A DNA stretch of 54,353 nt from an uncultured Acidimicrobiales bacterium (GTDB lineage: Bacteria > Actinomycetota > Acidimicrobiia > Acidimicrobiales > SHLQ01): the NCBI GenBank assembly GCA_905479685.1, contig CAJQNJ010000032.1, positions 1 to 54,353 on the forward strand, written 5' to 3'. Under the pieces are notes generated by a model. That model did not search any database. It saw nothing but the letters and a program-made list of their open reading frames with translations, and had not been told where the DNA came from. The translations under genes were made by a program, and so were the position numbers. Shown piece after piece: positions 5,284 through 10,647 of the stretch (positions are counted from its first letter, which is position 1; every line of letters begins with the position of its first letter).

Positions 5284-6744
5284 GTGAGTGACGTATGGCA
5301 AGGCCCCGGATGGTGGTTGGCTTCTGATGGCAAGTGGTACCCGGCAGATGCCGAACCAGGTGCTGTGTATGAGGGTGATCTTCAGAACAACGATGCTCCC
5401 GCTGTCGATGCGGCCCAGCCCATCGCAGCTGATGTCTCGATTCCTGCTGAACCTGTGCCCCGGCTCGACGTGCCAGCGGAGCCAGCTTCGCCAGGGCCAT
5501 TCCCGATCGCACCAGCAGTTGCAGAGACGCCCGCGCCCGCTGTCCCACCCACCCCGGCGCCTGCGTTCGGCGCAGACCCCTTCGCGGAGATGCCCAATCC
5601 TGTAGTGCAGGAGTCAAAGGTTGGCGGCTGGCAAACGATCGAACCGCAGGCGCCGGTAGCGCCGTTCGAAGCAGTCCCGACGTCGCTCCGCGTCGCCGAA
5701 GATCCGACAGCCGAAGCGATCGGTGACGATGGCTGGACCAGCGCGTACGAGGAGCGTCACGAAGCCGACGTTTCCGGCGTCGTCAGCGCACCGATGCAAC
5801 CAATGCCCACAGCGCCTCCCGTCGATCCGCTGCCCCAGGCCCAGATCCCCGACGTCGCACCACCGACCCCAGTCATGCCCGACGCCCACATGCAACCGGT
5901 CGAGACACCCGAGGTCCAGGTACCGCCAGCGCAGATCCCTGACTCGCAGATCCAAGACCTACCTGACTCGCAGATCCAAGACCTAGCAGCACCGGTCGCG
6001 AGTGCAGCAGCAGTCGCAGGTGTAGCAGCGGTAGCCGGTCGCGACCCGTCGGTGCCGATCGAACGTGATGATGCCTGGCGAAAGCCCTCGGCACCCGATG
6101 AGACGCTCACGCGCCCGATCGTTGCCGAACCAACTGGTGTTCCCGATGTCGTCGACCTCGCCGTCATAGAAGAACCGCCGGCGTACGTTCCAGAACCGTC
6201 GCAACGGAACTGGACACTCGTCGGCGGGGTTGTCGTTGCGATCGCTGCGATCGTGGGAATCGCACTGCTTGTCGCATCGCTGCTCAGCAGTGGCGACGAC
6301 AATGCCGACACCTCGAACCCCAACAGTGGTGCAACGCCATCGAGCGAAGCATCCGCCCCGAGCACTGAAGCGGAGGACGATCCCACAAACGTGTCGGTCT
6401 TCGAACTTCGAGCCGGTGACTGCATCGTTGGCGACATCGGCGCCGGGCAAGTGACCAAGGTGATCAAAGTCGACTGCAAGCTGGAACACCAGTTTGAGGT
6501 GTATCGCGAAGCCCTGATCGATACTTCGATCACGAGCTTCAACGAAGAGGCCATCTCGGAATACGCGGAGGACGTCTGCCGGACGTCGCTCGAGGCGTAC
6601 ATAAGCGCCGATGACGACCGAGGTTTGAAGTTCAAGTTCCTCCAGCCGACAGAGGACTCGTGGAATCAGGTCGAGGATCCGGATCGGGTGATCACCTGTC
6701 TCCTGTTCGACGACGACGGTCCAATTATCGGAACAGCAGCATGA
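5284..6744 (+). CDS. DUF2510-like membrane protein with Pro/Ala-rich linker, one TM and an extracytoplasmic septum-formation-like domain
   Basis: N-terminal WQGPGWWLASDGKWYPAD; TM VGGVVVAIAAIVGIALLVASLL; GTG start chosen. Confidence 0.65.
   Translation: MSDVWQGPGWWLASDGKWYPADAEPGAVYEGDLQNNDAPAVDAAQPIAADVSIPAEPVPRLDVPAEPASPGPFPIAPAVAETPAPAVPPTPAPAFGADPFAEMPNPVVQESKVGGWQTIEPQAPVAPFEAVPTSLRVAEDPTAEAIGDDGWTSAYEERHEADVSGVVSAPMQPMPTAPPVDPLPQAQIPDVAPPTPVMPDAHMQPVETPEVQVPPAQIPDSQIQDLPDSQIQDLAAPVASAAAVAGVAAVAGRDPSVPIERDDAWRKPSAPDETLTRPIVAEPTGVPDVVDLAVIEEPPAYVPEPSQRNWTLVGGVVVAIAAIVGIALLVASLLSSGDDNADTSNPNSGATPSSEASAPSTEAEDDPTNVSVFELRAGDCIVGDIGAGQVTKVIKVDCKLEHQFEVYREALIDTSITSFNEEAISEYAEDVCRTSLEAYISADDDRGLKFKFLQPTEDSWNQVEDPDRVITCLLFDDDGPIIGTAA
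5941..5988 (+). repeat. 24-bp in-frame tandem duplication (DSQIQDLP / DSQIQDLA)
   Basis: gactcgcagatccaagacctacct followed by gactcgcagatccaagacctagca. Confidence 0.9.
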
Positions 6745-7067
6745 GTGCAGGAGCGGTTGACTTCTATTGGCGACCCGGGTGCGGATTCTGCATGCACTTG
6801 GAGCGCGGCCTCAACAAGCGAGGCATTCCACTGAACAAGAAGAACATCTGGGACAGTCCCGAAGCCGCGTCCACGGTGCGAAGCATCGCCAATGGGAATG
6901 AAACGGTCCCTACCGTCGTCATTGGTGATGCGGCGCTGGTCAACCCGAGTGCCGGGCAGGTCATCCAGGCGATTTCCAATCAGGCTCCGGAACTACTCCC
7001 CGCAGGGGTCGAGGTTCCCGAACCCGGCCAATTGAGTCGCCGAATCAACAAACTCCTCGGCGGGTAA
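6741..7067 (+). CDS. Glutaredoxin/mycoredoxin-like protein
   Basis: DFYWRPGCGFCMHLERGL CxxC active site and TVPTVVIGD; ATGA overlap with preceding stop. Confidence 0.85.
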   Translation: MSAGAVDFYWRPGCGFCMHLERGLNKRGIPLNKKNIWDSPEAASTVRSIANGNETVPTVVIGDAALVNPSAGQVIQAISNQAPELLPAGVEVPEPGQLSRRINKLLGG

Positions 7068-7168
7068 GCGGTCACACCTCGGGATTTCCACCCGATCAGA
7101 GGGTGATTTCTTGGTGCTGCGTGAAACGTTTTCGGCGCCTTCAGAAGTTTTTGCATCCAGCAGAGGCC

Positions 7169-7206
7169 TTTAGTGCTAAATTAAGTCACACGACTTAGTG
7201 CTAAAT
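7169..7206. promoter_or_regulatory. Palindrome-rich operator/promoter region upstream of the whiB/B12 regulator operon
   Basis: Direct repeat TTAGTGCTAAAT at 7170-7181 and 7195-7206 (each holds a TTAG-TG-CTAA dyad); between them TAAGTC-acac-GACTTA (7182-7197). Confidence 0.55.
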
Positions 7207-7231: not shown

Positions 7232-7585
7232 ATGATCGATGACCTGTTCGCCGTTTCTGAAGCAAGACCCTGGACATCCACAGCCCTGTGCGTAGGCAAG
7301 CCTGACTTGTTCTTCGCTCCTCCTGGAGAACGGCGCACTCGTCGAAACAAACGGGAAGCCCTCGCACGGTCATACTGCGAAAACTGTCAGTCGTTGCTCC
7401 CCTGCCGGAGTTGGGCGCGAGTAAATCGAGAACATGGTTTTTGGGGCGGGGAAAGCGAAGAGCAACGTGCCGCCCTGGGTTATCCTCCGCGAAGCCCATC
7501 TCGCCGGGCGGTCGCCGAGATGGGAAGAAATGCTTCCCGAACCGGGGATGCCTCCGAGTTCGACGACGAAGTACTGGCAGGCTGA
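7232..7585 (+). CDS. WhiB-family Fe-S transcriptional regulator
   Basis: Four-Cys pattern LC...YCENCQSLLPC, followed by HGFWGGESEEQRA (WhiB G[V/I/F]WGG signature). Confidence 0.9.
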   Translation: MIDDLFAVSEARPWTSTALCVGKPDLFFAPPGERRTRRNKREALARSYCENCQSLLPCRSWARVNREHGFWGGESEEQRAALGYPPRSPSRRAVAEMGRNASRTGDASEFDDEVLAG

Positions 7586-8409
7586 TGACCGACCCGATCA
7601 CGCTCATCGATGTGGCGGACCGACTGGGTGTCCATTACATGACGGCGTATCGATATGTACGAACCGGTCGACTCCCAGCCGTCAAAGATTCTGGACAATG
7701 GCGGGTGTTCGAGAACGACCTCGCCGCGTTCGAGGCGAGGCCTGCCAAGGCGCCGCCCCGTAAGGACTTGCTTCCCACGCTCATCGAGGAACGCCTGCTC
7801 GCCGGTGACGAGAACGGGACCTATCAACTCCTCGAGAACGCACTGGCATCGGGAGCCGACGCGGAGGAGGTGTACCTCGATCTGATGTCTCCAGCAATGG
7901 TAGGCGTCGGTCGACGGTGGCATGAGGGAGACATCTCGATCGCTGACGAGCATGTGGCAACCTCGACTGCCCTGCGCGTCATCGCTCGACTTGGGCCACG
8001 CGTGTCCAGCAGAGGCCGGATGAAGGGCACGATCTTGCTGGCAACGATCTCCGACGACTACCACTATCTACCCACCGCAATGCTCCGAGATCTACTCCGA
8101 TTCCGCGGGTTCGACGTGCAGGACCTCGGAGCAAACACACCACCAGAGTCGATCTTTGATCGAGCCAGCGGTCTTGCCGACCTCTTGGCTGTGGGTGTTT
8201 CGGCAACCTCCTCGGGTCACGATCACGTCATGAGAGAAACGCTCTCGAAACTTGCTGGTTTGCATGTGCCGATCGTTGTTGGTGGAGCGGCCTTCTCGGG
8301 GCTGGACCACATCACGAGCCTCGGTCCGTGTATCCCATCGAACTCAGCCAGAGACGCACTTTCGATCTTCGAGACGATTCATGCCGAAGCGCGCTCCAAG
8401 GCCAGGTAG
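7585..8409 (+). CDS. HTH (MerR/excisionase-like) + cobalamin-binding domain regulator, CarH/LitR-like photoreceptor candidate
   Basis: HTH LIDVADRLGVHYMTAYRYVRTGRLPA; Wx9EH motif W-HEGDISIAD-EH; DxH (DDYHYLP) and VGVSATSS / VVGGAAF B12-binding elements; TGATG overlap with whiB. Confidence 0.8.
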   Translation: MTDPITLIDVADRLGVHYMTAYRYVRTGRLPAVKDSGQWRVFENDLAAFEARPAKAPPRKDLLPTLIEERLLAGDENGTYQLLENALASGADAEEVYLDLMSPAMVGVGRRWHEGDISIADEHVATSTALRVIARLGPRVSSRGRMKGTILLATISDDYHYLPTAMLRDLLRFRGFDVQDLGANTPPESIFDRASGLADLLAVGVSATSSGHDHVMRETLSKLAGLHVPIVVGGAAFSGLDHITSLGPCIPSNSARDALSIFETIHAEARSKAR

Positions 8410-8421
8410 CGTCGACACACC

Positions 8422-9213
8422 ATGCCAGAAGGCCACACGATCCATCGCTTGGCGCGAGACCTGAACCGGACCCTTCGTCCGGGAGCCGTCTCGGCCTCCT
8501 CTCCGCAAGGTCGCTTCAGCTCGGACGCTGCACTCCTCGACGGCAGGGCCCTCGAGAGGGCAAACGCGTGGGGCAAACACCTGTTCATGGAATTCGCCAA
8601 TGCCCCGATCCTCCACATTCATCTGGGACTCATCGGCAAATTGCGGAGCAAACCCGCCACCGATCCCGAACAAGGAGAAATTCGGCTCCGCCTCATCGGC
8701 GACGAACAACTCTGGGACCTCACCGGACCCATGATCTGTGCGCTCATCGATCCAGATGACGTCGACACGATCACAGCGAAACTCGGGCCCGACCCGCTGC
8801 GCAGGGATGGAAGGCCTGAGGACTTCGAGGCGCGTATGAGCGGCCGATCGGTCCCGGTTGCCGCCGCCCTGCTCGACCAGAGTGTGATGGCAGGTGTCGG
8901 CAACGTGTACCGATCCGAATTCTGTTATCTGTCCGGAATTGATCCGCGGACTCCTGCCAAGACCCTCGACGAGCAACAGACCCGCGCACTGTGGGACCTC
9001 GCAACCACCCAGCTCAAACTTGGCGTCCGACTGAACCGCATCGTCACCCGCGATCCAGATGAAGTTGGTACGAGCGTCGGAAAGATCGGTGACGAGGATC
9101 GCCTGTACGTCTACAAACGTGAAGGCCTTCCATGCCACCGCTGCGGAACCGAGATTCGTCTTCTCGAGATCTCCAAGCGGAAGGCCTGGTATTGCCCAAC
9201 ATGTCAGTCATGA
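8422..9213 (+). CDS. nei: Endonuclease VIII-like / Fpg-Nei family DNA glycosylase
   Basis: MPEGHTIHRLARDL N-terminus and C-terminal zinc finger CHRCGTEIRLLEISKRKAWYCPTC. Confidence 0.92.
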   Translation: MPEGHTIHRLARDLNRTLRPGAVSASSPQGRFSSDAALLDGRALERANAWGKHLFMEFANAPILHIHLGLIGKLRSKPATDPEQGEIRLRLIGDEQLWDLTGPMICALIDPDDVDTITAKLGPDPLRRDGRPEDFEARMSGRSVPVAAALLDQSVMAGVGNVYRSEFCYLSGIDPRTPAKTLDEQQTRALWDLATTQLKLGVRLNRIVTRDPDEVGTSVGKIGDEDRLYVYKREGLPCHRCGTEIRLLEISKRKAWYCPTCQS

Positions 9214-10250
9214 GCAGTTCTCAACCGGCGTCGTACGACGCAATTCTGATCGTTTCGTTCGGCGGACCCGAGGCCCCAGAAGATGTGGTTCCCTTCCTGG
9301 AAAACGTGACGCGAGGACGTGGGATCCCACGCGAGCGGCTCGAGCAGGTTGGCGCTCACTACCACCTGTTCGGCGGGCGAAGCCCCATCAATGACCAATG
9401 CCGTGCGCTCATCGCGGCGCTCGAACCCGCGCTCATGGAAGCGAGCATCGATCTCCCGGTCTATTGGGGCAATCGCAATTGGACACCGATGCTGACCGAC
9501 ACGGTGCAGCAGATGGCTGACGACGGCATCGAACATGCACTGGCTTTCGTCACGTCAGCGACCAGTTCGTACTCGGGATGCCGGCAATACCGAGAGGACA
9601 TCGAGCGAGCGCAGGCGGACGTTGGACCAGCCGCCCCGACAATTGACAAGATCCGCCAGTACTACGACCATCCGATGTTCATCGAGCCCATGGTGGACAA
9701 CACGGCCAAAGCCCTCCGCGGTACCGGTGACGACGCGCGCCTGGTATTCACGGCGCACTCGATTCCGTTGTCGATGGCATCAACCTCTGATTATGAGTCG
9801 CAGCTTCGAGAGGCTGCTCGCCTCATCGCGAGCGGTGTCGGACACGAGACCTTCGATCTGGTGTGGCAATCACGGAGTGGTCCGCCCCACGTGCCCTGGC
9901 TCGAACCAGACGTCAATGACCACATCGAATCCCTTGCGGCGGCTGGTACGACAAGCATCGTCCTCGTCCCGATCGGCTTCATCTCTGACCACATGGAGGT
10001 GATCTTCGACCTCGACACCGAGGCTGTCGCCACTGCAGCTCGCGTTGGGTGCGATCTCAGCCGCGCCTCGACCGTCGGCACCGACCCGCGGTTCGTGGCC
10101 GGCATCGTGGAACTGATCGAGGAGCGGCGTTCGGGTGTGCCCAAACGCTCCATGGGGAGCCTTGCGATCCGCCCAGACTTCTGCGCTCCCGGATGCTGCC
10201 CAGCGCCAACACGCCCGAGTATCCCCAAAGATACCGCCGCCAGTCGGTAG
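9201..10250 (+). CDS. hemH: Ferrochelatase (coproporphyrin-type, putative [2Fe-2S])
   Basis: ILIVSFGGPEAPEDV, VFTAHSIPLSM, SGCRQY internal Cys and C-terminal DFCAPGCCPAP cysteines; start 9201 or 9210 (ATGA overlap with nei). Confidence 0.9.
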   Translation: MSVMSSSQPASYDAILIVSFGGPEAPEDVVPFLENVTRGRGIPRERLEQVGAHYHLFGGRSPINDQCRALIAALEPALMEASIDLPVYWGNRNWTPMLTDTVQQMADDGIEHALAFVTSATSSYSGCRQYREDIERAQADVGPAAPTIDKIRQYYDHPMFIEPMVDNTAKALRGTGDDARLVFTAHSIPLSMASTSDYESQLREAARLIASGVGHETFDLVWQSRSGPPHVPWLEPDVNDHIESLAAAGTTSIVLVPIGFISDHMEVIFDLDTEAVATAARVGCDLSRASTVGTDPRFVAGIVELIEERRSGVPKRSMGSLAIRPDFCAPGCCPAPTRPSIPKDTAASR

Positions 10251-10284: not shown

Positions 10285-10647
10285 ATGAACCATGCGCGGA
10301 TCGCACAACAGGCATTGCACTACCGCAATGCGATGGTTGTCGATTCCTATACCGCAGGACGCTTCGACCCCGCCGCCGTTGCGACGGTTGCGGTCGAATG
10401 TGGTGACCCGACGATCGATGCTGCGATTCGGCGAATCGGTACCGCCTGGATCCGTGGCGGCCTCGACCCTGAAGCACTCGTCGACACGTGGTCCGGCCCG
10501 CTGGTCGATCGGATCTTCGCCGAAGACCCGACGCTTCTCGATGCGATCGATGACATCATTCGCACGGTACACCGGGTGCAGTTCTCGCGGCCACGGGGCG
10601 GCGTGGCAGCCAAGCGGCCTGTACATCGGCCGGGATCGATGGGCTGA
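10285..10647 (+). CDS. Conserved-looking hypothetical protein
   Basis: ORF of about 120 aa with ATG start, colinear with the preceding operon. Confidence 0.5.
   Translation: MNHARIAQQALHYRNAMVVDSYTAGRFDPAAVATVAVECGDPTIDAAIRRIGTAWIRGGLDPEALVDTWSGPLVDRIFAEDPTLLDAIDDIIRTVHRVQFSRPRGGVAAKRPVHRPGSMG

Follow-up and report, generated by a model that had tools for sequence, protein, structure and literature searches.

Our analysis of the window, the whole 54,353-nucleotide stretch of DNA from an uncultured Acidimicrobiales bacterium, suggests that a compact whiB operon is probably controlled by a B12-dependent light sensor with an HTH_17 DNA-binding domain: the dark, AdoCbl-bound form of this regulator would repress the operon via tandem palindromes, light would release it, and WhiB would form a second tier of regulation. 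The computed support for this explanation comprises the gene order, the residues and fold of the sensor, the predicted operator, its association with the regulator among genomes, and the genes found behind it in relatives. The operon lies on contig C32 of the source assembly (3.2 Mb, 85% complete); among named relatives, MAGs of Acidimicrobiales come closest. The operon and its surroundings hold the following features:

6744..7067, + strand: mycoredoxin/glutaredoxin-like gene (Mrx), the syntenic upstream neighbour (Pfam Glutaredoxin 38.9 bits)
7089..7105, + strand: terminator-like hairpin between the Mrx gene and the operon
7169..7180, no strand: predicted operator copy 1, a perfect palindrome (TTTAGTGCTAAA); no other TTTAGNNCTAAA match occurs in the 3.2-Mb assembly
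7194..7206, no strand: predicted operator copy 2, CTTAGTGCTAAAT, 25 bp from copy 1
7232..7585, + strand: whiB (PF02467, Whib, 44.3 bits, above cut-off)
7585..8409, + strand: B12 regulator (Pfam HTH_17 42.1, B12-binding_2 59.7 and B12-binding 54.2 bits, above cut-offs)
7918..7953, + strand: codons of Wx9EH (W112...E122-H123), an exact match to the motif
8062..8064, + strand: codon of His160, the putative lower axial ligand of cobalt, invariant in A1 and aligned with the corresponding photocobilin His
8422..9213, + strand: nei, a DNA glycosylase of the Nei/Fpg family (H2TH, Fapy_DNA_glyco and zf-FPG_IleRS above Pfam cut-off)
9210..10250, + strand: ferrochelatase gene, cpfC (Pfam Ferrochelatase 285 bits; NF000689 463.5 vs cut-off 408)
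10285..10647, + strand: conserved hypothetical gene, syntenic, with inverted orientation in L047 and L055

The four tightly packed genes of the original prediction were recovered with their junctions: whiB and the regulator gene have one base in common (TGATG), 12 bp separate the regulator gene from nei, nei and the ferrochelatase gene overlap at ATGA, and all four products scored above the Pfam cut-off. The Mrx gene, whose product reached 78.1 with the NCBIfam mycoredoxin model (cut-off 89.5), is probably a separate transcription unit. The hairpin behind it is by itself not above shuffle expectation, and in several relatives a GC hairpin followed by a T run is visible at the same place. A scan for sigma-70-like promoters found none. 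The gene at 10285..10647, for which a Pfam search gave no match, is a possible last member of the operon.

The order Mrx-whiB-regulator-nei-ferrochelatase was kept in 10/10 of the same-genus genomes sampled, with junctions ranging from -13 to +39 bp (start codons picked by script). Most genomes of the same family keep the order as well, some of them without nei: whiB-regulator-nei-ferrochelatase was found in L052, L055 and L056, nei is absent from the cluster in L046 and L047, and a short contig (L063) carries regulator-nei-ferrochelatase. The recurrence of the order in every same-genus genome sampled and in most same-family genomes shows that the association of the four genes is not due to chance. 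Restriction of the synteny to one strain, which had been named beforehand as a result that would speak against the original prediction, did not occur, and the order extends in part to other families of Acidimicrobiales. Two genomes of family f17 (L186, L187) carry whiB-regulator-nei-cpfC, and L189, a third genome, yielded whiB, regulator and cpfC. In family f18, two near-operators precede whiB in L243, followed after 49 bp by cpfC, with no nei, and L244 has WhiB and ferrochelatase genes close together on the same strand (WhiB placed by tblastn; cpfC start uncertain). Neighbouring genes in relatives were called with our own codon-usage ORF caller, which fails in AT-rich genomes (G148); since several genes were overlooked or came out too short, neighbours are reliable only if a Pfam or BLAST match supports them. 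As a side observation, a regulator in the genome of L243 (G124) is flanked directly by a mycoredoxin gene and by gyrA/gyrB-like genes, which recalls the neighbourhood in the window, and a second regulator match is found there near whiB-cpfC.

The regulator, with the architecture HTH_17, B12-binding_2 and B12-binding, is presumed from its sequence to be a B12 photoreceptor and repressor. The AdoCbl-photoreceptor signature Wx9EH that had been read in it is exact (W112, E122, H123). The regulator shares with CarH and class I LitR, the AdoCbl photoreceptor repressors of the MerR type, a B12-binding_2 plus B12-binding sensor with W, EH and the ligand His. All four residues W112, E122, H123 and H160 are retained in 87/92 homologues and in every regulator with an operator nearby (32/32). 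A structure search with the AlphaFold2 model (pLDDT 92.6) returned photocobilin 8J2W and CtMerR 8JBS as best matches, then CarH (5C8F/E/D), with methionine synthase behind; sequence searches likewise ranked photocobilin first among solved structures, and the W and EH of the regulator align with photocobilins, whereas methionine synthase lacks them. The SignatureFinder survey of light-responsive CBDs, which also lists CBD-HTH fusions, defines four motifs, GxxW, EH, GxxH and GxxxP (PMC11796333). Three of them are kept in the regulator (GRRW, EH, GANTP), whereas GxxH is replaced by DDYH, with the His kept, and the regulator thus falls short of the full set of four. The Gly of GxxH is kept in 72/92 homologues and replaced in the source genus. 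Beyond DDYH, the regulator differs from the SignatureFinder CBDs, CtMerR and the photocobilins, its closest solved structures, by its HTH_17 domain and by having no bilin domain (PMC11796333). Homologues without W/EH that retain the HTH were also seen (L060, L061, L065); these are possibly light-insensitive members.

The DNA-binding part belongs elsewhere. HTH_17 scored 42.1 bits against a cut-off of 27, the MerR model of Pfam 16.5 against 28.2, and the NCBIfam CarH model NF052513 gave 52 against 400; the HTH_17 domain and the two sub-cut-off scores rule out membership in the MerR-type CarH/LitR group. No PDB entry was matched when the HTH part alone served as sequence query. The label CarH-like, given to the protein earlier, holds for the sensor domain and fails for both the DNA-binding domain and the operator, a palindrome. 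CarH/LitR proteins bind tandem 11-bp direct repeats, nnnnTnnACAn (PMC9304148), or TGTACA (PMC9758184), whereas the element here, judged on its conserved part alone, is the palindrome TTTAGYRCTAAA and not a direct repeat. BldC, a compact MerR-related helix-turn-helix class that resembles the regulator by description only, has no sensor domain and binds AATTXXXX(C) direct repeats (PMC5859096), again in contrast to the palindromic operator.

The palindrome TTTAGYRCTAAA occurs just upstream of whiB, usually in two copies. Relatives have one or two copies, with a pair spacing of 16-21 bp vs 25 bp in the source, and in G002 the copies are degenerate. In the scanned genomes of the genus and family, exact copies are found mainly at the whiB operon. 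In loci outside the cluster-bearing group, 1.05 Mb in total, 32 TTAGYRCTAA sites vs 1 control site were counted, and almost every site stands ahead of a gene start. Another palindrome, similar to TGAGCNNNNGCTCA, was noticed after or near the operator in genus g4 of the family (upstream of whiB in L052, L055 and L056; also in L047).

The genes behind the operator in relatives include the regulator genes themselves, among them ones without a linked whiB, as well as operons for FAD oxidase, DUF1365 and CFA synthase. A photolyase gene is first behind the operator in L164 and third in L184; RpoD-like sigma genes (L120, L135, L193), ECF-type sigma genes (L137, L147) and a GAF-ANTAR protein gene (L162) also follow it. 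In G112 the operator is flanked by crtE-crtI-like-crtB and, on the opposite side, by a hydroxylase gene and two lycopene-cyclase genes. Closer to the source, a carbonic anhydrase gene follows an extra operator site in G004, a sigma factor gene in G006 has TTTAGTCCTAAA some 220 bp upstream, and one extra site in G003 has no gene assigned to it. DUF4397 genes stand behind the operator in G005 and G006 and also, within family f17, in G123 and G154; the loci L077, L084, L185 and L188 represent these four species of two families, with Pfam confirmation for L185 only. No operator was found in the photolyase regions of four family genomes. Since the operator is confined almost entirely to the whiB operon in the genus and is absent from these photolyase regions, the classic light genes are, by their sequence context, not direct targets there.

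These genes also bear on the possibility that the regulator senses the AdoCbl level, that is B12 sufficiency, and not light, adjusting haem synthesis and WhiB to the cobalamin supply. B12-binding domains do occur in light-independent proteins such as methionine synthase, the Gly of GxxH is lost in the source genus, and ferrochelatase belongs to tetrapyrrole metabolism. However, the intact Wx9EH fits photocobilin and CarH rather than methionine synthase, and photolyase and carotenoid genes lie behind the operator in relatives, which makes this explanation unlikely. The photo-oxidative stress circuit of the original prediction gains from the photoreceptor residues and fold of the regulator and from the photolyase, carotenoid and FAD-oxidase/DUF1365/CFA-synthase genes that the operator precedes in relatives, and it loses the CarH-like DNA-binding domain and operator.

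Among 199 genomes of the order, TTTAGYRCTAAA was present in 24/39 with the regulator (E<=1e-60) vs 16/160 without it (Fisher p=7e-11; p=3e-8 with the source's own family excluded), and a reversed control pattern showed no association with the regulator (p=0.63); as the genomes are related, such p-values overstate independence. The exact operator is absent in 15/39 regulator genomes. The WhiB group, its presence set by a self-chosen bit-score line of ~120, is associated with the regulator as well (19/39 vs 5/160, p=1e-11, likewise overstated by relatedness). The operator was present in 8/20 genomes with the regulator alone, in 16/19 with regulator and WhiB, and in 0/5 with WhiB alone; therefore the regulator appears the likelier binder, and the palindrome is disfavoured as a site of WhiB. 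WhiB proteins can contact promoter DNA together with the principal sigma factor, and the operator stands upstream of WhiB genes in several families; it is thus conceivable that WhiB or another factor binds the palindrome and that the B12 protein is merely a co-regulator. This is improbable in view of the operators in regulator genomes that gave no match to the WhiB group, their lack in WhiB-alone genomes, and the sites upstream of regulator genes without a linked whiB.

The WhiB protein has the PF02467 domain, the four Cys (C, CxxC, C), invariant in 14 sequences, and G-x-W-G-G; it belongs to a distinct WhiB group (GFWGGESEEQRAALGYPPRSP), and, by sequence, WhiB3 and WhiB1 are its nearest relatives of solved structure. 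In the WhiB tree, the operator-linked WhiBs, which come from several families, group in a single set of 25 rows (support 100/100), together with two operator-less paralogues (L229, L230); taken alone, the operator-linked rows require two changes on the tree and are therefore not shown as one clade by themselves. In family f54, WhiB is not beside the regulator, the operator lies ~100 bp upstream of it, and a photolyase gene adjoins. Nei starts with MPEG and has the N-terminal P-E, H2TH and zinc finger of the Nei/Fpg family; the NCBIfam equivalogs for its subtype were below cut-off. The ferrochelatase is probably of the coproporphyrin type (CpfC), as suggested by its ferrochelatase domain and a nearest solved relative named coproporphyrin III ferrochelatase, and its conserved Cys ligand set, SGC plus C-x3-CC, could hold an Fe-S cluster. 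It is the only ferrochelatase match in the source assembly; each of 5/5 genomes searched had one match, which in four family members is the operon gene. This counts against full dark repression: either the operon should keep some basal expression or a second promoter should serve cpfC. An ordinary haem and redox housekeeping operon, with a degenerate regulator riding along and light irrelevant, would suit this single ferrochelatase per genome and the adjoining mycoredoxin gene and yet is very improbable, given sensor residues and an operator conserved across the genus and beyond.

In the preferred light-switch explanation, AdoCbl-bound regulator would sit in the dark on the tandem TTTAGYRCTAAA upstream of whiB and repress the operon, including its own gene. 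Light would break the Co-C bond, the regulator would leave the DNA, and whiB, regulator, nei and cpfC would be expressed; dark repression and release by light are proposed by analogy with CarH. WhiB could then act as a second-tier regulator where related species have sigma factors; the role of CpfC would be to reduce photosensitising porphyrin and that of Nei to repair oxidised bases. We infer AdoCbl binding, the response to light, repression rather than activation, the WhiB output and the physiological purpose. Counted against this reading are DDYH for GxxH, the low CarH score, the regulator genomes without an exact operator and the missing photolyase operator in the family.

Several elements have counterparts in known systems. 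The carotenoid cluster, a target of CarH/LitR, is matched in one relative here. The LitR-type set of Pseudomonas comprises phrB, SDR, FAD oxidoreductase, ufaM and cryB (PMC9758184), and FAD oxidoreductase, CFA-like synthase, SDR and photolyase genes are common to it and the operator-bearing relatives. In the LitR-LitS-crt cascade of Streptomyces coelicolor, a B12 light sensor acts through a sigma factor (PMC12705666), which resembles the relatives in which the operator precedes RpoD-like or ECF sigma genes; here the second tier would be WhiB, encoded together with the sensor, nei and cpfC in a single operon. Fusions of light-responsive B12 domains to HTH domains are already known (PMC11796333). 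What appears to be new, as far as sequence can indicate, is a predicted B12 photoreceptor with another DNA-binding domain, another operator and another second tier. The well-studied B12 repressors are of the MerR type. None of the open-access papers covered joined WhiB, CarH and light; with the search confined to these papers, priority is not established.

The wider proposal is evenly balanced in our judgement: an undescribed class of B12 photoreceptor repressors (HTH_17, TTTAGYRCTAAA operator) would run a regulon for light throughout the Acidimicrobiales, and in several families light would pass through B12 to a distinct WhiB group co-transcribed with ferrochelatase. Hence, light may reach gene expression via WhiB in the source group, which consists mostly of uncultured Acidimicrobiales. 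The findings describe a group of regulators outside the MerR type, from Actinomycetota that are mostly uncultured, for which an operator, a regulon and a second tier, either WhiB or a sigma factor, are predicted; if the proposal is true, WhiB proteins gain a light input and a ferrochelatase gene comes under photoreceptor control.

A second group of regulators (L124, L133, L140, L145, L150, L153, L167, L168 and others), compared in part through N-terminal fragments of mostly 160 residues, lies between a gene for ~153 aa and an ImuA-like gene, which is followed by an ImuB-like (IMS domain) gene; the ImuA label is without Pfam confirmation. Neither a TTTAG operator nor any other shared palindrome was found upstream of these mutasome-linked regulators. 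Among the loci, L121 is labelled Bifidobacterium breve and L112 Acidobacteria; these labels, and that of L104, seem out of place for close relatives of an Acidimicrobiales protein, and the genomes are possibly mislabelled MAGs.
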